A DNA stretch of 64,000 bases, from NCBI GenBank assembly GCA_026419785.1, contig JAODTK010003455.1, forward strand, positions 124,001 through 188,000, in the 5' to 3' direction. This stretch comes from Sclerodactyla briareus (lineage: Eukaryota; Echinodermata; Holothuroidea; Dendrochirotida; Sclerodactylidae). The stretch's first letter is position 1; each line of letters starts with the position of its first letter. Below are positions 33,840 to 55,082 of the stretch, in pieces. Below the pieces are notes generated by a model. The model was not told the DNA's origin and ran no database searches. It saw only the letters and a program-made list of their open reading frames with translations. A program made the translations under genes and the position numbers.

Positions 33840-34213
33840 AAGTCAGAGGAGTCCAATGTAGTGCAGGTCAGTATGTGTGCATATGCTGTGTGTGTGTATG
33901 CAATGGTGATGGCAGGCTTATCCAAACGTAACTTCAACCCTGCCTTAATGATCAAGCCATATTGGTATGATTGGTATTGATCCCTATTGTTTGGGGCTCT
34001 GGTCAAAGTTATGAAAGGCAACAGAATCCATGTCTGAAAGTTCCAAATGCTTGGTCCATCGGCTGAATTTGTATGTAGCTTTTTCATGGTAGTAGCAAGA
34101 ACCCTATTGTTTTTTATATTGTATACCCCATAGTTATAGGGAAATTGTGGGAACTTGATATTTAGTCCATTTCCGCTTGTGAACATGATGACTTGACCCC
34201 CCTGGTGGATGGG
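33840..34213 (+). repeat. Family A repeat, left part, interrupted by a foldback element
   Basis: Family A blocks (CCCTATTGTTT, TCCAAATGCTTGGTCC, TTTGTATGTAGCTTTTTCATG, GAACCCTATTGTTTTT, CCATTTCCGCTTGTGAACATGATGACTTGACCCC) run up to GGTGGATGGG, where the foldback begins. The same repeat resumes at 35251 with GATGGATGAAAGCTCATATGTGGG. Confidence 0.75.
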
Positions 34214-35250
34214 AACAGGACCGCCCGATGTTCATAAGGCCTTTTCTTCTAGGCTTTTGTTCATAAGGCCCGTTATTCATAACGTGCAAATTTTCGGCAC
34301 AAGGGTGCGTTATTCACTAATGACCAAAAAGGTCCGATTTTCATAATAAAAAGGGGGTCTTTGTTCATAAGGTCCTATATTCATGATGACTGAAAAGGCC
34401 CGTTTTTCATAATTGTCAAAAAGGTCTGTTATTCCATAACCGAGGCACAAGTCCATTATTCATAATAGTCAAAACGGTCTCGATATTCCATAATGGCGAA
34501 GGGTCCGTACTTTCAGATAAAGCGAAAGGAGACCGTTATTCATAATAGCAAAAGAGGTCCGTTATTCATAATAGCAAAAGAGGTCCGTTATTCATAATAG
34601 TGAAAAGGGTCCGTTATAATAGCAAAAGAGGTCCGTTATTCATAATAGCAAAAGAGGTCCGTTATTCATAATGTGTTTCTTTTCAGTGATATACTTGCCA
34701 AACAGATTGTTCTACCTATGCGGGGTCCGGCAAGGATGCAAACCATAAAACTGCAGCAACCTTTTTGGTCACTCGATCCCTGACAGATCCACGACCGGTG
34801 TTTGTGTTTCTTATCATGAATAATGGACCTTTTTCCCGATTATGAATATTCGGACCCTTTTCCCTATTATTGAAAACGGGACCTTGTTTCTGTTTATGAA
34901 TACCTCGGACTTTTGTTCCATTATGAATTCGGACCTTTTCTCTCATTTATGAATAACGGACCCTTTTTCCTATGAATAACGGACCTTTCTCCTAGATGAA
35001 TAAGGACACTTTCCACTATTATGAATTGCGGGGGGGGACCGTTTTTATACCCTTATGAATATCCAGACCTTTGTTGTGATTATGAATATCGGACTTAGGA
35101 AAGGGGGAATAATATAAAGAACCTTTCGGCCATTATGATAACGGACCTTATGAACAAAAGGCCTATGAATAAAAGGCCTTATGAATAAAAAGTGCCTTAT
35201 GACCCAACGGGGACCTTATGAATAAAAACCCTTATGAACATCGGACTGTC
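34214..35250. mobile_element. Foldback element 1: inverted arms of tandem 26-bp units
   Basis: The left arm (about 34214-34690) is an array whose unit starts GGTCCGTTATTCATAATAG and ends in CAAAAGA. The right arm (about 34800-35250) is the same array inverted (TTATGAATAACGGACC). The outer ends match as inverted repeats: CCGATGTTCATAAGG on the left and CCTTATGAACATCGG on the right. A spacer of about 110 bp separates the arms. It splits one family A repeat, so it is an insertion. There is no transposase frame. The design resembles Foldback/FB-type elements, but I know of no named family with this unit. Confidence 0.8.
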
Positions 35251-35410
35251 ACCGATGGATGAAAGCTCATATGTGGGTTCTTCATAAGGATAAATAATCC
35301 CAGTCATTTTGGGGTAGGTCTAAAGTCATAAAGCCCTGTCAAGGATGTCACCTTAGCCTTTTTGCTTTCTGGTGTAATTACCTCTGCCATAAGTCATGTA
35401 GTCAAGTGGT
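35251..35410 (+). repeat. Family A repeat, right part
   Basis: It continues the unit interrupted at 34213, with GATGAAAGCTCATATGTGGG, TTTTGGGGTAGGTC and the 3' block CTTAGCCTTTTTGCTTTCTGG. Confidence 0.75.
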
Positions 35411-35792
35411 TGTTGCAATAGCGGGTTATTTCCCAGTTTTACAATGTACCGAAACAGTCGTCAGACAGAACTAACCTATGTTGTGGAAGATTTGCGGAGA
35501 GGGTGGTGGTTTTGGGGGTTTTTATAAGGTCGCACTTTTTTCCTAAAACAAACAATTGCCATGCCTGCACTGGCAATTGTTGTAAGCTAGGCCAGAAATG
35601 GGGTGGTAAGAGTAGGATTTTAACCCAAGGAGTGAAAACCTATGGTAATCAGCTGCTACACCTTTGGGAGAATAGTGGCCAGCACAGCGATTCAAAACAG
35701 TGAGATCATTACAACAGACCATGTTATCGATCCTGGGGATGGAGTATAGTATACCCTAACAGTATAACGTGATAGCCGGAGATTCATTTTAA

Positions 35793-36215
35793 GGTTTCTA
35801 ATTATAAGGGTCATTGTTAAGGGTCATTATTCATAAGGTTCGTTATTCATAAGTTAGTTATTCATATGAGCAAAAAGGTGCCAGTGTCATAAGGTTCGTT
35901 TTAGGTAATGGCAAAAAGGGTTCGGTATTCATAATGAAGCAAAAGGTTCGTAATTCAGAATATTAGGAAAGGTTCGATATTCATATAGAAAAAGGTTAGA
36001 TTATTCATAATGGAAACAAAGGTTCGATATGCATAATAGAAAAAAAGGTTCGATATCCATAATAGAAAAAAAAGGTTTCGCTATTCATAATAGGAAAAAA
36101 GTTGCGATATTCCTTAATAGGAAAAAAAGGTCCGATAATTCATAATAGAAAAAAAGGTTCGTAATTCATTATCGACAAAAAGGTTCGGATATTCATATTA
36201 GGCAAATGTTCGATA
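35793..36215 (+). repeat. Foldback pair 2, left array
   Basis: A tandem array whose unit starts GGTTCGATATTCATAATAG and ends in an A-run. About 14 units are visible, with variants. The outer end carries ATAAGGGTCATTATTCATAAGG. It differs from the foldback 1 unit at about four positions (C to T, T to A, C to A, G to A). Confidence 0.85.
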
Positions 36216-36239
36216 TCCTTGAGTAAAGCAAGACAGGCG

Positions 36240-36535
36240 CTTCGAGGGGGGGGGGGGGGAGGGGGGTGGAGTCGGAACCCAAAGCAAGGTGCGCCCTCAC
36301 CCTCCTATTGGGAGAACCAAATAAGGACATTTATGGGCCATAGACACATGCTGCTTGTCATATTTGCTAAAACAGCTACTGCAAACCTTATATGAACTGC
36401 AAAAAAAGAATCAGTTTGTGTTCAAAAGTTTATTGCCACTTGGGTCACTGGGGGGGGGTGATGACCCCAACTCCCCCCTTCCCACCCCCCTCCCCGGTCC
36501 GGTTGGCCCGGTGGGTACGCCACTGAAGACAAGAG
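36240..36535 (+). repeat. Repeat F, copy 2, inside foldback pair 2
   Basis: It begins with a poly-G tract and follows the block order of 26250-26490. It ends CGGTGGGTACGCCACTG, which looks like a transposon terminus. An isolated foldback unit, GGTTCGATATTCATCATGA, lies just after it at 36550. Confidence 0.7.
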
Positions 36536-39500
36536 GTGGAATTCGTAACGGTTCGATATTCATCATGATTAGCAAGTCGCCAAGGAGGGGCGGGGAAGGG
36601 AGGGATATTGTTGGCATAACCTCAGTGCAGCACTTCTACGGAAATTGACCGTGCCCTATTTTTTTTATATCCGGCCACGTTGTACCTCAGTTTGAAAACT
36701 TCCTGAGGCAACCACACCGAGTACCAAGTACGTTTCCCTTCCTCGAAGAAATCGCCATGGGCTCCCGAAGGAATTTAGGTATGAAATTCGCCCATCGTTT
36801 TATTCCTGCAATCTCACAAAAACCAGAAATAATTTGACGCCGGGAAGAACGTCTCTCCCATTTAAAAAACCATGTGCCCGTCACCAGTCAAGACGGAAGA
36901 CGGGAGAGGCGTCATTCATTTGGAAAAAAAGAAACTATGAATAATGTAATGAAACCAATGGGCGGAAAGGAATGGGTGCATCTCAAATTGCGGGTTTCTG
37001 TGTGTTATAGGGGTTGGGCTTTACATTGGGCTCAGTCCAAGGTACGAGTTCCAATAGTTCAGGTTACCATGGTCGTTTTGAGTTGCATACAGACCACCTG
37101 ACGATTATCCACTGTTTGTAGTGACAGTGGAAATTGTCCGGTCCGAGACACCCCGTGATGGTGTTCACGGTATTTTTGTTTTATGGTTTCACGGTGTATA
37201 TCCACTATTGTTAATCCTGGGGTAAGCATGGAAAGCTGTTAGGTCTGGTTTACTGAGAAAAAAAAAACACCGATCGAGTATAGGTTGAAAATAATGGATA
37301 ATGCTTGGTAAAACAAATGGTTCCCAGGGGGTAAACGTGACAACCAGCGAGACTTGTGATGCGTGAGAGGCGGGCATCTATGCCGCAATGTTGTACATGG
37401 TGGATGTTTGTACGGCTGCGGAACTCCATAGAATATGATCCAAAGGGGCGAAGAGGAATAGGAGCACTGAGCAGGGCAAACTGCAAGGTGTTGTATAGAA
37501 TGAGTCATAGTGAGGCGCCCGGGAACACCCCATATTTGGTCGTCGTGGGCGGATTTTTTGTCCATTCGGCAAAAGTTTGGAAGAGAAAAGTAGAAAGGGA
37601 GAGAGGAAGGGAAAGAAACAGGAAATCGAGTGAAGAAGAGAAGAAGAGCGGATTAACGTGGAAGAGTAGAGGGAGTGTAAACTTTCATCGCATATTAGTC
37701 ATATATCACGAAATATGCCAGCACTCGGGATTCTAACAGAGTGCGATATCACGTGGCTCCACAAATTCTGGCATTCGAAGCCGACTGGGGAAACAGAAGG
37801 CCAATATCTCGGGACTTCGAGATACGCAACGAACATAAGAGATAATCAGCGCACAGAGATCAGACCTAGTTGAAGTGGACGAAAGCACGACGGGGTCAAC
37901 ATGGAGTCCGGCAGCGGGGTTGACAGTAAGTAGGGAGGAAAGTTCGTTAGAAAAAGGATGCCCGACTGGTCTATTTACAACAATTTATTGACATCTCAGT
38001 CCAGTGCTTATAGTCCTAGGGAATAATGAATATGACGTCAAGAGCTGGCTGAGGGGACAATGGGCAACTGCTCGGAGAACCTCTCCTCCATCTTTCACGT
38101 TTTGGGATAGTGTGGCAATCAAAATATAAATAGGACAAGACAAGCGATATGCCTCTCTTCTGCTTAAGACTAGCTGGGGTCACTGCATGCAATCTCTATA
38201 CTGTCTGTAAGAGACGTGCAGCCTGCCGTTGAACTTTTTAACAGTGTAGGAATCCCAGGTGCAGGAGCATAATCCAGGTTGTGGGCGAACAACAAGAGTA
38301 AGTAGAGTAGAGCCTCTCTTGAGTAAGAGCAGCACGTGATAAAAGCCGCCTAAAAAGTAAAAGTTGTGGCTTTCCCTGCACGTGCTGAACACGCAGGTCG
38401 TTTTGAATAGTTATACCGAGGTGGGGAAGATGTTCAGTTTTCTAAGGTGAAGCCCCCCCAAACATTTTGTAAGTCGCAACACTCGGGTTAAGGGTTTTAT
38501 CTTCCCTGTGACTCGCAGATTTGCCATTTGATAGATGATTTCATCCTCACTGCTCTCCAAAATTATTACAAGGACACCGACTCCCCTATACTTCCCCAGC
38601 CTCCTGGTACGTCCTTGGTCGCGTGCGTACCTCTTTGTTATTTCTATAAATGACACCAGTGGTCGTTGTCCACCCCCCCCCCCCTCCCCCACCCACACAC
38701 ACACTGGCCCGCGAATTGATTTTTAAGAATATCGATTATGACTAACGTCAGATTGTCAGATTGCTCATTGGATCACTTGAATATATGTAGCTGACTTGAT
38801 GAGTCGTGGAATGCCTGCCGCTTACCTACGGCAGATTTTTACTGTCCCGGTATATAGGGGTGTTCATGTTTGGAATTAAAAAACCACCTGAAGGGGGAAT
38901 CGGATGCCGTCGGTTTAAAAGAGTTAGGCTTGTTGGGAATGTTTTAAATAATTCAAAATTGAAGCACAATGCAAATATGATGAGGTAGTACAGAGGCGTT
39001 TCTCCGACCCTCCCACACATTGTTACAGCAAGGACTAACGTTCTCTCTTCTAGTGTCTTACATTTATCGCGGTGGGCTATAAATCATGCCCCATAGTGGA
39101 TGTAAGCCTATGACATCACTATCCTGGATCAACCGGAAAAGTTGGTATAAATGTAATGCGGGAAGGTGATATCGCGAGTGCTCACTCTGGGGGTAGCAGG
39201 CGAAGAAGGAGGGGTGAGGTGCAGGTATAGGTCCTCTATCATAACAATCGGGCATACGAATACAGGGTGCTCGGAAATAATGAGAGTGTCCACGATTGCT
39301 GATCATGATGTCCGGAAAACAAAGCGCACAGTCAATGACGCTCTTATGGTCTGATACGCGTGAATGGAGTGGTGTCGGGTGTATTCTACAGGCCAGCGTG
39401 AAACTTTGTTATAAATTAAATAATGTCCAAAGACTGTCCCACGTGCTGCACTAGCCCGCCCCCTCCCCTCCACTCCGCCCATTCGATCAAATGATATACT

Positions 39501-42410
39501 AGGCCTAGCCTAAATGCTTGCTAAAAGTGTCTCCGCCATCACTACTGGTCAACCCCCCCCCCCACGTGTGGACCAGTCACCGTGTTACATCAGCAGCTCC
39601 TCAAAATCCGACCCACACTGCCTATCTCTGGAAAAAGTCATGGGGGGGGGAACATGGCGATACCGGGGGATCCGTCACATTAGTCGTTATAAGGCATGAG
39701 TTCTATTCAATTTCGACATATAATTATGTTGAAATCCTTTGTGAGGACAAATTATCTGCGTCATGAAAGCAAATAAGCTCAGAATTCAGCTCAAAATAGC
39801 ACACGTTACACCTGTTCGTAACATTCAGGCGCGGTTCTTACTAAGACCCCCTAAACAAAATAATATAATACGATCAAGCTCCAGGTAATGATGGGTGCTC
39901 CACTTATTTTCAGGGAAAAACCCCCCCCCCCCAAAAAAAAAAATAATAATAATACAGTCCTCTAAAAACGCCGGCCTTACATGCAGCGGGGCGCAAAGAT
40001 ATCATGTAGTCGGACCCGGTACATTATACGTTTTGCTCTTTTTCTATTTCAATTTTCTGTTGATCGGTTGTGGAGCCAATGATTGTACGGAGACTTTGTA
40101 ATCGTGTATTGATTATGCTTAATTCCGACGAGTTCGTTGTCTGGCGTGGAATTACACTGTGGGCGCACAAACCGCAGGGATGGATGGATAGTATATATCC
40201 CCACGTTTTAGCAGCGCTCCTATGACTTCAACATTAACACTGAGTAATTCTAGTTCCAAAAGCAGCACCCCAGCCAACTTTTTCACATGCATGTGCTCCA
40301 CTGCCATGATGATCCACACAGGATTCACATTTTTTCTGCCCTATCTGTACAACCGCATATTCGTTATGTGCATTCTGTAAAACTTGGAAAAAAATCAATA
40401 AGGAAGGTGAATGAAATTTTCCATGGAGTGGGTCCCCAACGAACGTCCATCGCCCATATAGGAAGAAACAGTACAGCAAGGTGTTCATAATTAAGAAACC
40501 AATATTTAGGGAAACCCAATCACAGGCTTCAGTGCAGTTGCCCTAATCACTTGAGACCGAGAACTCGAATAGCGCAATTCGGGGGAAGGGAAGAATGGAG
40601 AGATCGAGTTGAGATAAAAAAAAGAGAAAGAAATGTTTCCCAAAATATTTACTACTGAGTGCCAACAAAAATAGTGTTTCTTTATAGGTACTGTAGGCTA
40701 CATGAAATTCAATTGAATTTAGCCAAACTTTTTTGAGATTGGTTATTCTAATCGGATAATAACAATTTAGCCCACTATGTCAATGTTATCCCCCGTCAAA
40801 AAACTATGGCTGCGCTACGCATCAGATGTCAAATAGGTCGGGGGAAACAGGAAGTGTATTCCCTTGCCATCTAGGAGCCTTTCCCCCAAAATTTTGTGTA
40901 CGCTACGCGCCAAATGACTGGCTTCCGATCAGATAGTAATCGCCGACTGTATAAAATATCTATCCCTCTCTTCCAGCGTCACCCTGCTATTTCAAACGGG
41001 TGTCACATTATTCACATATCGTCACGTTGCCGGTCAGATATTAAGGGCTAAGCCTGAGGGGGTTCCTAGTCCTCCACATGTTCACGTAAAGTATTAATTG
41101 CAGTGGGTGACTTTTTATTAGCTTGTATCATTGACGGACATACTCTTTCAAAAAAAAAAAATTGCAAATCCCAATGTTTGCAGTAGCCAGCAAGGTATAT
41201 ACGGCGGTCGGCGTGGTATGAAAAGTAAAAAAATCTCGGGGTACGCTACGCGCCAACCAATGGTGTCGCTCCGCCTTAGATACTCAATCGCAGTTCCACT
41301 TTGTCTCTTTCTCCTCAAACCGGATCACGTCAGAGAGAGGGGGCTGAATACAGAATTCTTAACTGTCTGTATAGGAGGAAAAAAAAAAAAAGGCTGCCCA
41401 AGGAGGGAGATCATTGCAAAAAAGTGCACTGCTCTTGGCAAGGAGGACGCGAAGCCACGGCCAATGCGTTCATTACTGCCGAACAAAAGAGATGAAGACA
41501 TATTGGCATATGCATCAAGGTTATCAGCCTGATATATGAATGCCACTCGTTCATTGAAGGAGGAGAATGCACAAGCTCATAAACATCAATTATTCGAAAA
41601 CACCACCCTCACGTTAGATCACAGATTCCAGTTAGAGTGCTTCGATCATTTTTGTTTTTAGTTATGCCACCCCGAGCAGGCACGTAGTTTTTAAACGATA
41701 GTGTAAGTATAAACGGCTCTGCCACAGGCTTCAGTGAGGGGGCAGTTCTGGCGTCCTGGGAAGGTGTGAAACCCTAAAATATTCTCCGCGCCAACCACAT
41801 GGTGGCGTGCTCCGTTGAACCGCGCCTCCGGGTTGACAAAACCTGCATACGCCCCTGAATGTGTTATATTCTCAGGGATGGGGTCTCGAATCAATAAAAA
41901 AGTGCCCACTGCAACTAAAAACAAGTTTTATCACCAATAACAAAAAGATGGGAGAGGTGGGGGGTGGAGGGAATAATATATTTTTTCACCTCTCCGATTG
42001 AAGTCGTTACCCGCCTTACACCTACCCGCTGTTGGCGAATTTGATTTTTTTTCGAACTTCCCTATTAAACTACCGTGTTTTTTCGCTTCCATAGGGCCTA
42101 GATGACATTTCGTGCCAATTATGGGTAGGGTTAACTTTATATTTATTAGGAATATGATTTTTTATATAATGAGCCGCGACTTTGAGTTGCCTATAGAAGA
42201 AATGTTGGAATGTTTACGGAAGATGCGATGATGAGGTCAAACCTAATATGTGAAGGTGGCAAGCAATTAAAAAAATATGGAATAGTTGAAAAACCATAGT
42301 TCTAGAGGCCACGGAGGAGGAATTCAGCTGCCAATTTTTGTGCCAGGGAAATGATTCCGGGATCGTGGTGTCTAGACCTCAACATTTCATGCTGAGCTAT
42401 GCGCCAACTT
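36536..42410. other. Interior between the two inverted arrays
   Basis: About 5.9 kb with no recognised protein. The longest frames are 37356-37736 (+, 126 codons, basic C-terminus) and 38411-38704 (-, 97 codons, with EITKRYARDQGRTRRLGKYR and SSEDEIIYQMANLRVTG). Both are unassigned and without splice evidence. A motif, TACGCTACGCGCCAA or close variants, recurs at about 40814, 40900, 41242 and 42396. A short fragment at about 41790-41857 ends in CATACGCCCCTG. The base composition is less AT-rich than the flanking intron. Confidence 0.45.
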
Positions 42411-42424
42411 TTGGTCCATAGGAT

Positions 42425-42660
42425 ATCGGGAACCTTTTTTTTATATTATGAATATCAAACCTTTGTTCCTATTATGATATCGCAACCTTTTTTTCTATAT
42501 GTTATATCGAACCTTATGGATTATGACCCCCTTTTATTATGAATAGCGAACCGTTATTTCCATTATGAATTACGAACCTTTTTTTCGAAAATTTGCACGT
42601 TATGAATTACGACCTTATAATAATGACCCTTATGGATATCGAACCTTATGGATATCGAGC
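42425..42660 (-). repeat. Foldback pair 2, right array
   Basis: The inverted counterpart of 35793-36215: ATTATGAATATCAAACC, TATTATGATATCGCAACC, TTATGAATTACGAACC and CTTATGGATATCGAACC units. It carries the ATATCGAACC variant of the left array, not the AACGGACC variant of foldback 1. Confidence 0.8.
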
Positions 42661-42763
42661 GACCCCGTATAACCTATCACCATAACTGCATCTGCCATAG
42701 TTTAGAATTCAGTTATTAATACCAATAAGCCATGGAAATATGGATGGATACTGTTCACTTGAT

Positions 42764-48589: not shown

Positions 48590-49657
48590 TTTCGATTATG
48601 CGGGCCAGTTGCGGTCATGTGTGTGTGCCTGTCTTGTATGGGCTTCGTCGTTGGGCCCCGGACCGTTTCTTCCGTGGGGCTGGGGTTATCTCCATCCCTA
48701 CCCGCCTGGCGAGGGGGTTATTCCTCCCGCCTATCTTGTTTGGTGTTTGTGCCCTTTCTGGGCTCTGTCTGCCCCCTTGGGCCGCCGGGAGGGGGGTATT
48801 TTCCCTCACTAGTTCTAGGGGGTTTTCCCCCCCCTCCGTCGCCTATCGTTAGCTTTGCACTAGGACTTTTACACACGTGGCTATGGGGGGTTTTCCGTCG
48901 TGACTTTGTGTGTGTGTTCCAACCGTGTCGTGTGGTGGCTCAGGCGGTCAGAGCGCTTGGCTCTCATGCCATTGCCTAATTTTGCATATCAATAGGGCAT
49001 CCTCACGTTCCTTTCTAGCATTTGCTACGGATTGCATTGTGTGCCATATTTGTTGTGGTCGATCGTACATTTTGATCATATGTCACGCATTATGTGCCCG
49101 CTTATGCGGCAATAAGTTGGGGTAGGGACAAAAATTTTTACTTCTCATGTATGACCTGTAGCATTTTGTTCCTCTTTCCGATGAGCCATCTTTCGAGCGG
49201 TTTGCGTCACACCGCCAGAGCTTTGGCGGCACAGCAGTAGCTTTGCGGCACCGCCAGTAGCTTTTGCGGGGGCATCTTTATTTTCGCCCGTGGGGCTTTT
49301 TCCTCTCCCGGTGGCCTGGGGGGCCGTCTAGACCCAGGTGTTGGGTTTGTCTTTGGGTTCCCCCTAAGAGGCCTTGTTGTTTTCTGCCGGTCATGGCTTT
49401 TCCTCTCCACCCTACCTCGGTAAGGGGGGGGGGCCTTTACCGTTTCGTGAGCAATTTTCACGTTGTTTGCCCGATATCTCGTAAACGGTAAGCCTAGGGG
49501 GTCCCAAGTTGCAACTTTGATTTTCAGAGTCGGGCCGCAGGGGGTCAGGGGTCATGTTCGGACCCCTCGGGGGCTCTCAGGGTCCTTTGACCTTTTTCGA
49601 GTACATTGTCTTTGTAGAGTGCTTAGTTTGAGTACATTACTGATCACGAACTAAACT
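48590..49657 (+). other. Putative 5' terminal/leader region of the retroelement
   Basis: GC-rich, T/G-rich on the + strand, without a convincing frame. It includes short internal repeats (CACCGCCAGAGCTTT.., GGCACCGCCAGTAGCTTTTGC at 49210-49267) and a tRNA A-box-like run (GTGGCTCAGGCGGTCAGAGC near 48936) with no matching B box. Its position before the first gag-like ATG suggests LTR plus leader, which is inference. Confidence 0.45.
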
Positions 49658-52330
49658 ATGGATTCGTTGGCTTTTTTACAGTTCTGTAAGACGAAGAGCA
49701 TCGTACAAGTCCTCGAGCCAGCGCACTTCCGCACCAAGGTTCAGAGGTCATCCCGTTTTTACTGCGGGCGTTCGGCGCTTGCGTGGCGTAAAAATCCACG
49801 CTTGTGGCGGATCCTCCAGGTCCCCCCGTGGCTACGGAGCGCGGGACCTTGCGTTCCTGTTCTTTCCTTCTCCTCCATGCTGGCTCCCTTGTTGAGTCCA
49901 CCAGTAATGGGGGGACATGGAGGGCCCTGGTGGGGGCCGAGACTCGGTGGTGACGGTACTTCGTTGAAGGGGCAGGGCTTATACCTTGTACACCACGGAT
50001 CTGTTCAGGGACCATTGCGATCCCTCGGGCACCCTCGGTGTTCAGTCCCCCTCCTTCTCCCTCCACCTCCGGACGAACCGTGTTGATGCGTGCGGGCTGG
50101 GGTGGGGGGAAGGAGGGCCCCGCGGGGACCCCTGTTTTGAAGACAACTACCGTCGGGCTGCTGCCGTCACCCTTTCCGTCAGTCCATTTCCCTAACCGGG
50201 TTAGGGCAGGCCTCCCGCGTGGTCGTGGTTTACGGCTCAGCAACCACCCCACCAGGATCCAGTTGGCTCCGCCTGGGGGTGGCATGGACCCCTGCGCCGG
50301 GGCAAAGGGTCAAGGAACGTTCCTCCAGTGGGGGGGACGGGTGCCTGGGAAGCCCACAGCCTTATGTTTATGGCGTTCTCACGAATCCGTTCGGTTACGT
50401 AAGGCCCTGGTAACGTGTTCAGGGACGGCCCGTCCCGCCAGCGGGATGTCGGGGACGTAGCTCACTGTTAGTGCGCCCCCACCCAGTGTGGGATCTCACG
50501 TCGGCGTCGGAGGGGCACCGTCAGTGGGCGCACGCCGAGGGGTTTTTGGGGGCGCTGCCCCGTGGGCTGCAGCCCGCGCCGAACAAAACCTCGCGACGTG
50601 TTCTCCCGCTTGGGTCTCTTGGGGATGCCCCACCCCCCTCTGGCGGTGCTGGGAATCTTTCGGTCAGAGACATCGGACGGGTCGGGAGTTTGTGGTCCCT
50701 CCGATCGCCCCGGACTACAGGCCAGTCCGTGCGACGGGTAAACGTGGTCCCCCCCTGCAGTCGCCCCCGGATGAGGAGGAAAAGGAGCAACCCCCCTCCT
50801 CGTAAGACCCGTAATAAGGCCTAAGAAAGAAGCGCGCATGCTTCAGGCGGGCAATAGCTTCCACGTTGGACGCTCTTCAGTCCCTGACGGCGGCGTTGGC
50901 GAAAGGGCTGTGCACGCCCGGAGTTGACAGTGCCTCTCCGCCCGGGGATCGCTGGTCCACCTCCCCACTCCTTGACAAACCGACACTTCCTGCGAGCCGG
51001 GATGGTTTTCAGTGTTACGGTGGTTCCTCCCGTACGTATCCGCCTGGTGTTCAAGGCTACGGAGCCGTCGATGGAGACAGACGTCGATCTTTCCCCGCCG
51101 GTCCTCGAAACGGGATCGACGTGCACGCATCCGGACCGTGGTCGGGTCGGACGCTCCAGGCTTCTTAGCCGGCTGAACCTCCTGCCCCCGCCGTTGAGGG
51201 GGCCCGTCGGGCCAGGAGCCCTTCAGGAGAAGGGAACGGAAGGGCCACCCGTTACGGGCCTCGTTGAGGCAGAGTACGCTGCGGCGGTGACGAACTGGCT
51301 CAGGCTTTTTCATGGACTTGTCAAAGAACCAGGACGGCGCGACGGAGGATCCGACAGGCTGGGCGCGTTTGGCCCGCACCGGGACCCGCCTCCACCCGCT
51401 CCTACCCTCCAAATGCCGCTGGACGGGTTCCAGATATTCCAGGCAGAGGGCGGGACGTCCAGGTTCGGAGCGTCCCACAGCGGGAGGGACCGCCTCATTC
51501 GAGGAACCCAAGGCACCAGTACGATGCCATTCTCCGTTCCCACCCCTGCCGCCGGAGGCGTGGGACAGACTGGTACTGTCGGGCGAGGGTCGTCGGATCT
51601 CCCGGCCAAGGAGGGCGGAAGGCCTTCCTTCCGTCCGAAGGATCGGCCCCAGCCGGGACCGAGACGCCGATCTCAAGTTTTTTGACCGTGCAGCGAGAAT
51701 CGGTATCAAGGTCTCGCTCTCCACGTTTCTTAGCGGAGTAGGGTTCGCCCCAACGTGGACACGCCGTCGCGCAGGACCCCTCCTTGCGGGACGGGGATGG
51801 TGATGATGGTGAGAGTCCAGTCGGGGGGTACTACTGGCCTGCGAATCAGTTTGACCCGCATTGCCGTCAAGGCAGGCACCGTCTTTGCGGCGATGTGTCC
51901 ACCGGACTTGAACCTCACTCCGCTCGCCGCGGGCGTACTCCAGAGTGCCCCTATTTTGGGCCCGACCTCCTCGGAGGGGGCTTGTTGCCCCGGGTCCTGG
52001 AACAGGCCGATTCCGGGGGAAACGTATGGAGACGGCGGACGGTAGCCCGGTAAGAGGTCAGTTTCTTTTGGCAGAGCAGCCGCGCTCGGGGAGGCTCTCA
52101 GCGTCTCGGCCCTCCGGGGGGGGCGGGAGGGTTTGCCCCCATCCCCGTAAGGCAGAAGGGGAACCCGCCAAGATCCCTGCAACGCCAGGGGGGGGCACGT
52201 TCATTCTCCCGCCGTGGCAGAGTAGGCGATGTGCTCCAGCCAGGCCCGGGGGGTGGTAAGGACTACCGAGCCCCCTGGCACGGACCCGGCGGACCCCACC
52301 TGGGGGGGTCTCTTCGGGACTTTGCGGGGG
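49658..52330 (+). pseudogene. Gag-like region of the retroelement, broken
   Basis: It starts at an ATG (MDSLAFLQF) and is followed by several overlapping + strand frames, the longest at 50924-51685 (253 codons, with EAEYAAAVTNWLRLF). It is Pro-, Gly- and Arg-rich, has no zinc knuckle I can identify, and no single frame crosses the region. The minus-strand frames of similar length (50843-51724) are antisense shadows of high GC content. The gag assignment rests only on its position upstream of the reverse transcriptase. Confidence 0.5.
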
Positions 52331-52559
52331 CGTGGGAGGGGGGGTGGCCCCACTGTCACATCGGACCACGGTGGATCCTGGCAACGCTTCCCAGGGGTAT
52401 AGTCCGGGGTTTACGGCGCATCCCCCGCGCTCGGGCGATTTTGGGCGTTACGCCGCGTGGTCCGCGGGGGGATCCGCTCCCGGCGTCGGCGTTGCGAAAG
52501 GGCAGATCCAGAACCCTTTTGGCCAGAGGGGGCCCGATTACTTCCCTCCTCAGCAGGAA

Positions 52560-53110
52560 GTGCCACGGTTTGTGGCGTTCTTCACCTGACGACCAGAGGG
52601 AGGGTTTCGTGGCCGGCCGATATGAAACTGCGTCCTCTGTCACAGTGTTTCGTCCGCCCACCCACTTCCGCATGGAAACACGAGCGGTGATTTCAAACAC
52701 CTGCGGAGGTAGGGGTCTCTGGGCGACGCGTCGAGTTGGACCTAGCAGATGCATACTTGCAAATCCCGTCAGGCGGGAGGATTTCTTCTTCCTATGCTGT
52801 ACAGCTACCGACGATTTCCTCCTACCGATTTAACAGTCTCCGTTTGGTTCTCCCGGTTGGGTTGTCGATGGCGCCCCGTGTGTCTTACAAGGGTCACGAG
52901 GGTATGGTGGCCCATGCTGCGTTCGTCATGTGAGGTCCAGATCTTTCCTTGTCTGGACGGGGACTGCTTATCGTGGTGGGGGGACTCAGCGCGGAGGTTC
53001 AGAGGAGCACCCGCGTACGGTTCTGACTTAGCGCGGAGCGTGGGATGGCTCGTCAACTTGCCAAGTCCGAACGCGGACCGTCCCCGCAGATCGTTATCTG
53101 GCTAGGTGCG
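52560..53110 (+). pseudogene. Reverse transcriptase domain of the DIRS-like element, broken
   Basis: ELDLADAYLQIP at about 52733-52768 is the first catalytic Asp motif. SSYRFNSL and VGLSMAPRV at about 52828-52885 match the LPFGLSTAPRVF block. The YLDD catalytic box, expected near 52946-52963, reads CLDGD, so a catalytic residue is displaced. Downstream, DSARRFRGAP..GSDLARSVGWLVNL and PSQIVIWLGAQIV fit the thumb/connection of DIRS-type RTs. Frameshifts at about 52790, 52890 and 53080 separate the pieces. Inactive. Confidence 0.85.
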
Positions 53111-54385
53111 CAGATCGTTGAGCGGAAGGGGGGGCCTCCCCCATACCTGGGGAAGACGGGACGGCCCTGCACCGGGTGTCGGCTGATCAGGGCAGAACTC
53201 CCATGCGTGGCGCGTGGCTGGTGCTCTCGGATTCATGGCGAGCCTAGTGGACCTGGTTCCCTTTTGCCGGCTGTACATACGCCCCCTCCAGAGCCACATC
53301 TTGGCGTGTTTGCGCCGTCGTCTCGGGATATTGTCGACGCCATTGCGTGGCAGCCAGCACTGGACCGATAACCCGTGGCTGGTGGCTGAACAGGCGACAA
53401 GTCTGCAGGGGGTACGGTTCCCGCTTCCCGGTTCCCACACTTGTGTTATCACGTCGGACGCCCGCTGGAGTTGCGTTGGCTCACGTGTGGAAATCGGGAG
53501 TTGAGTTACGGGGGACCCCATAAATGTGCTCGAGTTGATGGCGTTGTTCCGCGCTCTCCGTGAAATTATGCCACCGAGAGTGGGGGAGGCCGTCTAGTAC
53601 TGGTCCGTTGCGGGACTAGTTACAGCGCGGCGGTATCGTACATAACCAAGCAGGGCGGGACGCATTGCGGAGTCTTTGGTCAGTGACATAGGATCTGTTC
53701 CTGTGGCGCCGCACGCACGGGGTGCGCGCTCAGGCGGTTTAACCTCCGGTGCAGAGAAACTCCATCGCGAACATGCTCTCGCGCATCAACTCATGATCCG
53801 GACGGAGTGGAGTGGTTTTCACGTCGGAGTCAGTTGGGCAAGCGTTGTTGGAGGCTGTTTCAGCGTCCGAAGCGGGGACTTGTTCGCATCGCTCTCAATG
53901 CAAAGCGCATCTCTTCCGCCTCCAGGAGTCCCGTCGAGCGGGCGCTCTGGTGCGCGATGCTATGGCTCGGTTTGGGGCCTTTCTCGATGGTGTACGCCTT
54001 CCCGCCGTTAGGCCTAGTCGAAAGGTTGGAAGGGAGCCCGTGTTGGGTCACCCTGATACGCGCGGTTTTGACCGACCGGAGCGTGGTTCCGGCCACTTCT
54101 GGCCGTCGTGCTGGAGGGGGGCGCCGTGATTCCCCCCGGCTTCTCAGCTCCTGGTGCTTCCGGGTCTGGGAACGCGCCGTCCAGCATCCGAAGGCTCTGG
54201 CCTGCTGGTTGCGCGGCGTGTGTCAGGGATTCCCTCCGAACGTCGGCCTTACGGAGAATGCTCCGCCGGGGATGGCGGACCGGGGTCGGAGAGATTCCAC
54301 CCCTCGCCTGTGTGATTCGCGTCTGAACTCGGATTTGTTACCCGAGGGTGGTGTGCGGATCAAGAGCCAAGGTACCATGTGGTAG
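53111..54385 (+). pseudogene. RNase H-like and C-terminal part of the DIRS-like polyprotein, broken
   Basis: FCRLYIRPLQSHI (about 53264) is the conserved GRLHLRPLQ-type block. VITSDA (about 53450) is the first RNase H Asp. A YITKQGGTHC block (about 53638-53667) matches YINRQGGT. SPVERALWC (about 53926) and VYAFPPLGLVERL (about 53990) match the region after RNase H. The region ends in fragments near 54385 without a tyrosine recombinase signature (R..H..R..Y). Multiple frameshifts are present. Confidence 0.75.
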
Positions 54386-54394
54386 ACAGTTGAT

Positions 54395-54755
54395 GAAATG
54401 TAATTTTATATATTGGCTTGTAAAGATGATAACTTGACCCCACTTAGTGGATGAGCTTATACTCGGTAGTACGTCACCTGATGACTGCATGAGTGGCATC
54501 AATTTGGGGTCAGGTAAGAGGTCAACAGAGGCTGAACTTGGAAAATCCTTATGAATTGAGTTTCAGATTGCTTGGTCTGATTATTGTTGAAATTTAGTGT
54601 GTAGGTTTTTGTTAAGGAAAACAGGAAACCTATGCTTGATCAAGATCATTTTTTGTGGAAAATAGGAAAGTTTGTCGAAATGTCATATGTTGCCCTAATG
54701 AGGCTGATGGCCATCGGTTGTCGGAAATGAGTCAAGGAATTACTAAGCCTTTCTG
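54395..54755 (+). repeat. Family A repeat ending at the exon 9 acceptor
   Basis: ATTGGCTTGTAAAGATGATAACTTGACCCCAC-type start, then GATGAGCTTATACTCGG, TTTGGGGTCAGGTAAGAGGTC, TTGCTTGGTCTGATTATTGTTG and the 3' block GGAATTACTAAGCCTTTCTGG. The block runs to within about 10 bp of the CTTCAG acceptor of exon 9, so the repeat supplies most of the polypyrimidine tract. Confidence 0.8.
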
Positions 54756-54766
54756 GTTTTCTTCAG

Positions 54767-54905
54767 CATTTCCCTTCCTCCGCAAAAGCAAATTCTGGCA
54801 ACCACCAGTGATGACCGGACTGAAGAGTGGGCATTCCTACTGGAGATGTCATCAGGAAGAGCGGGCCCACCAGTGATTGGGTGGCTGACTGTGACTTCGA
54901 CCAGA
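54767..54905 (+). CDS. SPAG16: SPAG16 exon 9: WD repeats 1-2
   Basis: It has an acceptor TTTTCTTCAG and a donor CCAGA|GTAAGT. It reads ISLPPQKQILATTSDD, matching VSMQPHKDILVSCGED, then after a one-base slip near 54860 TSDWVADCDFDQ, matching HTDWLSDCCFHP. The first C completes the Ser split with exon 8. The slip lies in the GGAAGAGCGGG stretch between the blades. The final single base is phase 1 and should be followed by GTGGC. Exon 10 offers TGGC, so one base is missing at that junction. Confidence 0.88.
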
Positions 54906-55082
54906 GTAAGTTCCTGCCAGTGCTTGATCCAAGTGTGATTGTATAGTACAGTAGCTACCTGTGGAAAGCTTACCACAGCCAATACTTTTTTCAGAGTTTT
55001 TGCGCTTTGTGAGATATGGGGCTGTTGTGAGATAGCTACTATTTCATTTGAATTCATCTGTCCCAAGTGGCCCTTCTGACAA

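Follow-up and report, generated by a model that had tools for sequence, protein, structure and literature searches.

Inverted arrays of a 26-base unit in the holothuroid Sclerodactyla briareus are very probably insertions of related non-autonomous foldback transposons

How do two pairs of inverted tandem arrays come to lie side by side, each pair with its own variant of the repeated unit? This question is raised by a stretch of 64,000 bases from the genome of the holothuroid echinoderm Sclerodactyla briareus (contig JAODTK010003455.1, positions 124,001 to 188,000; G000:C2260:124001-188000), hereafter referred to as the window. Two converging pairs of arrays, with a unit of about 26 bases, are located at 34.22-34.67 / 34.81-35.25 kilobases (kb) and at 35.8-36.2 / 42.42-42.66 kb. 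An earlier note on this DNA explained the private variants by homogenisation between the arms of each pair, or by amplification once the inverted copy had formed, and proposed an undescribed mobile system. Here, we conclude, with a probability of about 0.93, that each of the two pairs, named E1 and E2, marks an insertion of a foldback (FB-type) DNA transposon, and that the two transposons are related and non-autonomous. Such an element is composed of two long inverted arms, each with outer tandem units of about 16 bases and inner units of about 26 bases, around a middle of about 0.14, 4.4 or 6.2 kb, and its tips are unlike, A being GGGGACCGCCC... and B being GGTGACAGCCC... It would be mobilised in trans by cut-and-paste, through a transposase with affinity for the tips and perhaps also for the tandem units. 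Both arms of a pair would carry one unit variant through descent from a single source element per family, and units would be won or lost inside one arm by local tandem duplication.

The elements have asymmetric, defined ends, an 8-base target duplication, empty sites and many genomic copies with the same ends and arms. Side-by-side alignment of the outer edges gives two tips, A = GGGGACCGCCCGATGTTCATAAGG and B = GGTGACAGCCCGATGTTCATAAGG. The genome searched (319 Mb, 3171 contigs) has 85 matches to A and 95 matches to B at up to two mismatches, the two lists overlapping, while the reversed controls gave 0. For the count of end pairs, 8 of the 85 A matches (B-type) and 25 of the 95 B matches (A-type or already listed as A) were dropped, which kept 77 and 70. 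Among these 147 ends, all 25 neighbouring pairs that converge within 12 kb are A-B; no A-A or B-B pair occurs. In one of the 25, the two ends belong to adjacent elements. Two more neighbour pairs are not convergent. Seventeen of the 25 A-B pairs span 0.7-1.1 kb, and the widest interval, C2853:91425-99938, is 8.5 kb.

Target duplications were tested in 33 elements with both ends (31 taken by rule, together with E2 and its long relative L041). Elements with one end, or with non-adjacent or weak ends, were left out, as were L025, L029 and L004, the last of which has an extra match between its ends. In a frame fixed by the tips, 11 of the 33 elements have 8-base flanks that agree at 7 or more positions; shuffled pairings gave a mean of 0.66 and a maximum of 3 in 200, even at the best of 25 frames. 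L041 has the target duplication GGCAGTTA on both sides (8/8). Furthermore, clean empty sites were found for the insertions L031 and L023, in the form of repeat copies in the window that lack the element, have one copy of the target and align unbroken across the junction. The copies are thus insertions of an element of the cut-and-paste type.

The arrays occur mainly as inverted pairs throughout the genome. At up to two mismatches, the core unit has 1033 forward and 1250 reverse matches, 2283 in all, compared with 12 and 7 (19) for the reversed pattern. A complete short element averages 11.2 such units (25 elements), and the genome would therefore hold very roughly 200 elements. We chose 42 loci (L001-L042) from the lists of unit, end and E2-family matches. 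These loci and the window contain 88 arrays of at least three units, 85 of which converge with an inverted partner no more than 8 kb away; this count left out L043 and L044 and predates L045-L047. The three partnerless arrays are those of L016 (no partner in 6.6 kb upstream), L036 (where the array reaches the locus edge) and L042 (a family-2 copy, other arm not found). Thirteen of the first 20 loci had been picked where the listed exact matches, as we read them, showed no converging pair, and 12 of these 13 still had a partner. In L013 and L018, one converging partner has only two units each. The guess of a mobile system is thus borne out by paired arrays, defined outer ends, target duplications and empty sites.

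Several observations weigh against this conclusion. The loci came from match lists and not from random sampling. Twenty-two of the 33 elements match at fewer than 7 of the 8 edge bases, for which decay is the likely explanation. The duplication of E2, GTATAAC on both sides, has 7 bases and not 8, and that of E1, GGTGGATG / GATGGATG, needs 4 extra bases at the A tip. Three of the five joined-flank alignments (L014, L018 and L015) are gapped at or near the junction. L025 was scored A-A rather than A-B in the end alignment and is a possible A-A copy; L029 was also labelled A-A there, yet its left end equals B with 0 mismatches. Finally, no transposase was found in any interior examined.

The copies can be described as two families. 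The short form of family 1 comprises 25 elements of 848-1211 bases with a central spacer of about 0.14 kb, and has the features of miniature inverted-repeat transposable elements (MITEs): it is short and multi-copy, has inverted ends and is without coding capacity. Its arms have from 2 to 16 units, and the number of repeats varies between arms and between copies. The long form of family 1 (L024, L033 and L045) has arms of the A and B types and an interior of about 4.4 kb that is common to the copies at 78% identity; the far tip of L033 was not scored as an end in the end alignment. Family 2 (E2, L041 and L042) is marked by a GGTTCG unit and has an interior of about 6.2 kb; the interior of E2 is 80% identical to those of two other long copies. 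The search behind these copies scored 40 of 981 candidates and so gives at least 52 matches. The two families are related, because the A arm of E2 has the CGTGCAAATTTTCG module of the family-1 A arms. The three long copies of each long family diverge by about 20-22%, and with this divergence the sampled copies look old. Examination of three mid-size A-B intervals gave L045, the further long family-1 copy; L046, in which arm and spacer sequence of the short family precedes stretches with matches to a window repeat; and L047, with short-type arms in its right part and other repeat sequence beside them. L015 and L023 each hold two foldback copies with similar flanks, which suggests that the site was duplicated together with its element rather than hit by two independent insertions. 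The features of E1 and E2 in the window are collected in Table 1.

Table 1 Features of the two foldback elements in the window (positions counted from the first base of the window).
Feature	Position	Strand	Description
Probable left target duplication of E1	34204..34211		7 of 8 bases equal to the right one; weaker than in other copies (4 extra A-end bases needed)
E1	about 34212..35253	+	Foldback MITE of about 1 kb, short family 1; A end left, B end right
E1 A arm	34218..34674	+	Terminal GGACCGCCCGATGTTCATAAGG, then outer units, then inner units of about 26 bases; C2260:158217
E1 central spacer	34675..34810		Conserved across family-1 copies (BLAST matches)
E1 B arm	34811..35253	-	Closes with the complement of GGTGACAGTCCGATGTTCATAAGG; C2260:159230
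Probable right target duplication of E1	35254..35261		GATGGATG
Left target duplication of E2	35762..35768		GTATAAC
E2	35769..42666	-	Foldback element of about 6.9 kb, family 2; B end left, A end right
E2 B arm	35769..36210	+	GGTTCG units
E2 interior	36211..42421		Without recognisable coding capacity; further long copies on C1595 and C3071
E2 A arm	42422..42666	-	GGTTCG units; has the CGTGCAAATTTTCG module of family-1 A arms
Right target duplication of E2	42667..42673		GTATAAC

In our judgement the window looks like non-coding animal DNA, and a scan of it for transfer RNA genes and Rfam families gave no match. In the genome searched, COX1 had no match. Three of its repeats touch on foldback copies elsewhere. 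Segment 9257-10870 consists of five copies of a tandem repeat of about 296 bases, a relative of which is the target of the L031 insertion. Segment 23102-24058 matches the interiors of long family-1 copies near their arms (L033, L036, L030 and L045), and no array was found there. Segment 29888-33664 is a repeat with relatives inside the A-B intervals of the foldback copies L021 and L046, and is partly made of tandem copies of about 274 bases with TTTGACCT runs. A GC-rich block at 49001-55000 (51 to 65% by kilobase, compared with mostly 38-47% elsewhere) has open reading frames (ORFs) of up to 404 amino acids on both strands; six of these were checked, and none has a Pfam match.

What moves these elements? 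Since no interior examined holds a transposase, mobilisation in trans is something that we only infer. E2 or the long form of family 1 could be the autonomous partner, with a transposase gene that has rotted past recognition. The shared ends and arms and the multi-kb interiors common to three copies of each long family speak for this possibility, which we hold to be doubtful though a real contender. When 8 of the 14 longest ORFs from the long interiors were compared with Pfam, nothing was above the cut-off, and no ORF above 204 amino acids was found in the ten loci or elements checked. Moreover, the long interiors share only short ORF pieces between copies, and windowed divergence of E2 is even along its length, with frequent insertions and deletions and without a protected stretch. 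Two Pfam matches, to CLAG (E 0.003) and VHL (E 0.03), fell below the cut-offs and were taken as chance.

Known transposases were also sought in the genome. The transposase domain of Mutator-like elements (MULEs), PF10551, has 0 matches, although a diverged or split gene could escape this search. The P-type domain PF21787 has 10 matches on six contigs, and neither of the two loci viewed has units or A/B ends. The 38 partial matches to the hAT domain PF05699 all lie outside the 25 A-B intervals (lists compared by eye), and the single match to the Merlin-type (IS1595-type) domain PF12762 is on a contig without a listed A or B end. This comparison covers the 25 listed A-B intervals, and introns, decay or more decayed ends may hide a gene. 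A partial hAT dimerisation match is located at L005:174-317 (C983:10173-10316), about 1.1 kb beyond the edge of a short foldback copy; the flank and the A end of this copy appear partly duplicated. The absence of MULE matches, the location of the P, hAT and Merlin matches outside A-B intervals and the 25 of 25 A-B pairs form the basis for a more speculative reading, in which the families are a foldback lineage driven by a transposase superfamily not yet tied to foldbacks. Such a transposase would require one A end and one B end, and the 16- and 26-base arrays would be putative binding sites; we regard this as improbable.

We now turn to the variants that the two pairs carry, for which the earlier note had invoked exchange between arms. 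The arrays themselves are where it placed them: at up to three mismatches, the core unit occurs 40 times in the window, 37 times within the four arms, as compared with a mean of 2.1 and a largest count of 8 in 100 shuffles. The length of 26 bases is correct for the inner part of the arms, while the unit of the outer part has about 16 bases. The quoted units of the two pairs differ at 2 positions and not at about four. Only one of these, a C/T position, separates the pairs, with C in 12 of 12 E1 units and T in 11 of 12 E2 units. The other, a T/A position, is mixed in both (10 T and 2 A in E1; 4 T, 5 A and 3 other in E2). In the other 24 short copies, C is found at the C/T position in 278 of 311 units (up to three mismatches), hence it is not fully fixed. 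That both arms of a pair carry its own variant is therefore true of one base, and not of the linkers and outer modules, which are unlike between the arms of one element. In a tree of 44 units from E1, E2, L041 and L042, the families are nearly separate, with a few units misplaced (3 family changes, compared with an average of 10.7 and at least 7 in 300 shuffles). The free intermixing that the earlier note named as refuting its proposal was not seen.

If gene conversion or replication through a hairpin had homogenised the arms of each pair, an A arm should have more in common with its own B arm than with the B arms of other copies. The outer 380 bases were compared in 25 of the 33 elements, those shorter than 1300 bases. 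The identity of an A arm is 0.829 to its own B arm and 0.830 to the B arms of other copies, both below the values among A arms (0.882) and among B arms (0.893), and in 24 of the 25 elements most other A arms resemble the A arm more closely than its own B arm does. The same is observed for E2, the pair stressed by the earlier note. The identity of its A arm is 0.81 with its own B arm as against 0.92 with the A arm of L041; for its B arm, comparison with the B arms of L041 and L042 gives 0.90. Thus, arms are unlike within an element and conserved between elements, in the 25 short copies and in the E2 family. The inner arms of the short copies show no own-arm excess (own score 70.0 versus other 69.2, p 0.56). 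Eight arm-specific motifs, picked after inspecting the copies, are present on one side in 4 to 18 of the 25 elements and on the opposite side in 0 of 25.

Some observations do point towards exchange. The family-diagnostic base is common to both arms of a pair, and single units are 0.729 identical to their own opposite arm compared with 0.719 to other elements, which is a small effect. Arm labels mix on the 44-unit tree (11 changes, compared with an average of 13.8 and at least 9 in shuffles), so that the tree separates arms poorly, again by a small margin. In a model of E1 as single-stranded DNA, 290 of 363 predicted pairs would bridge the centre. L008 (L008:2013-3175) stands on the other side: its A arm has grown to about 45 copies of the 26-base unit that match at 98%, its B arm has about 10 units at 84%, and a private variant is found in 40 units of the A arm and in 0 of the B arm. 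This is a transposon arm turning into a small satellite. Homogenisation was tested at the level of arms, inner arms, units and arm-specific motifs and rejected, and we consider it highly improbable; the best account of the base that both arms of a pair share is that each family descends from a single source element. The local expansion in L008 might also suggest that local rearrangement, and not transposition, produced the arrays as ordinary satellites or palindromes. The 8-base duplications, the empty sites and the occurrence of fixed A and B ends in scattered locations leave this reading with hardly any credence.

The proposal of an undescribed mobile system gives way to a known anatomy, found in FB, Galileo, Tetris, Tm1 and other foldback elements, as described in PMC4079207, PMC3573991 and PMC3169594. 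E1, E2 and their relatives have long inverted arms of tandem repeats around a middle, defined termini with an 8-base duplication (8-10 expected) and a variable number of repeats. In the account of PMC3169594, Tm1, a Mutator/Foldback family of root-knot nematodes, has, like the families of E1 and E2, composite inverted arms with a short tandem motif in varying number, asymmetric terminal motifs (A1 and A2 in Tm1) and a MITE-like majority, and no two copies are identical. It differs in its motif of about 14 bases, compared with 16 and 26 here, in its mostly 9-base duplications, compared with 8 here, and in that one Tm1 copy has a MULE (Phantom) transposase, whereas none was found in the families of E1 and E2. 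Tetris of Drosophila virilis, as presented in PMC4079207, shares the foldback anatomy without conserved ORFs and the duplications of 8-10 bases, and its arm repeats seed satellite-like arrays, as in L008; these repeats are called TIR-220, whereas those described here have 16 and 26 bases. Galileo of Drosophila, according to the description in PMC3573991, has long, internally repetitive inverted arms in which the number of repeats is independent between arms; its transposase is of the P superfamily, whereas the two P-type loci viewed here lack units and A/B ends. Rehavkus, placed near MULEs, also has inverted ends and a minisatellite inside the element (PMC6446971). However, the minisatellite described there lies before the 3' end only, the duplications have 9 bases, and there is no transposase here to compare. 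According to PMC4079207, most foldbacks are assigned to the Mutator superfamily, although there are exceptions. A duplication of 8 bases does not settle the superfamily.

A literature search with the letters of the unit gave nothing relevant among the matches listed. The TU elements of sea urchins are similar, being a heterogeneous foldback family with 8-base duplications, whose inverted arms have an outer domain with short tandem repeats. Foldbacks in the sea urchin are cited in PMC4079207.

Homogenisation is not needed to explain inverted arrays with a private unit; it suffices that each family goes back to one source element. The arm-specific markers are a possible test of homogenisation in any foldback family. 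L008 is a clear case in which one arm of a transposon is now a small satellite and the other arm is not.

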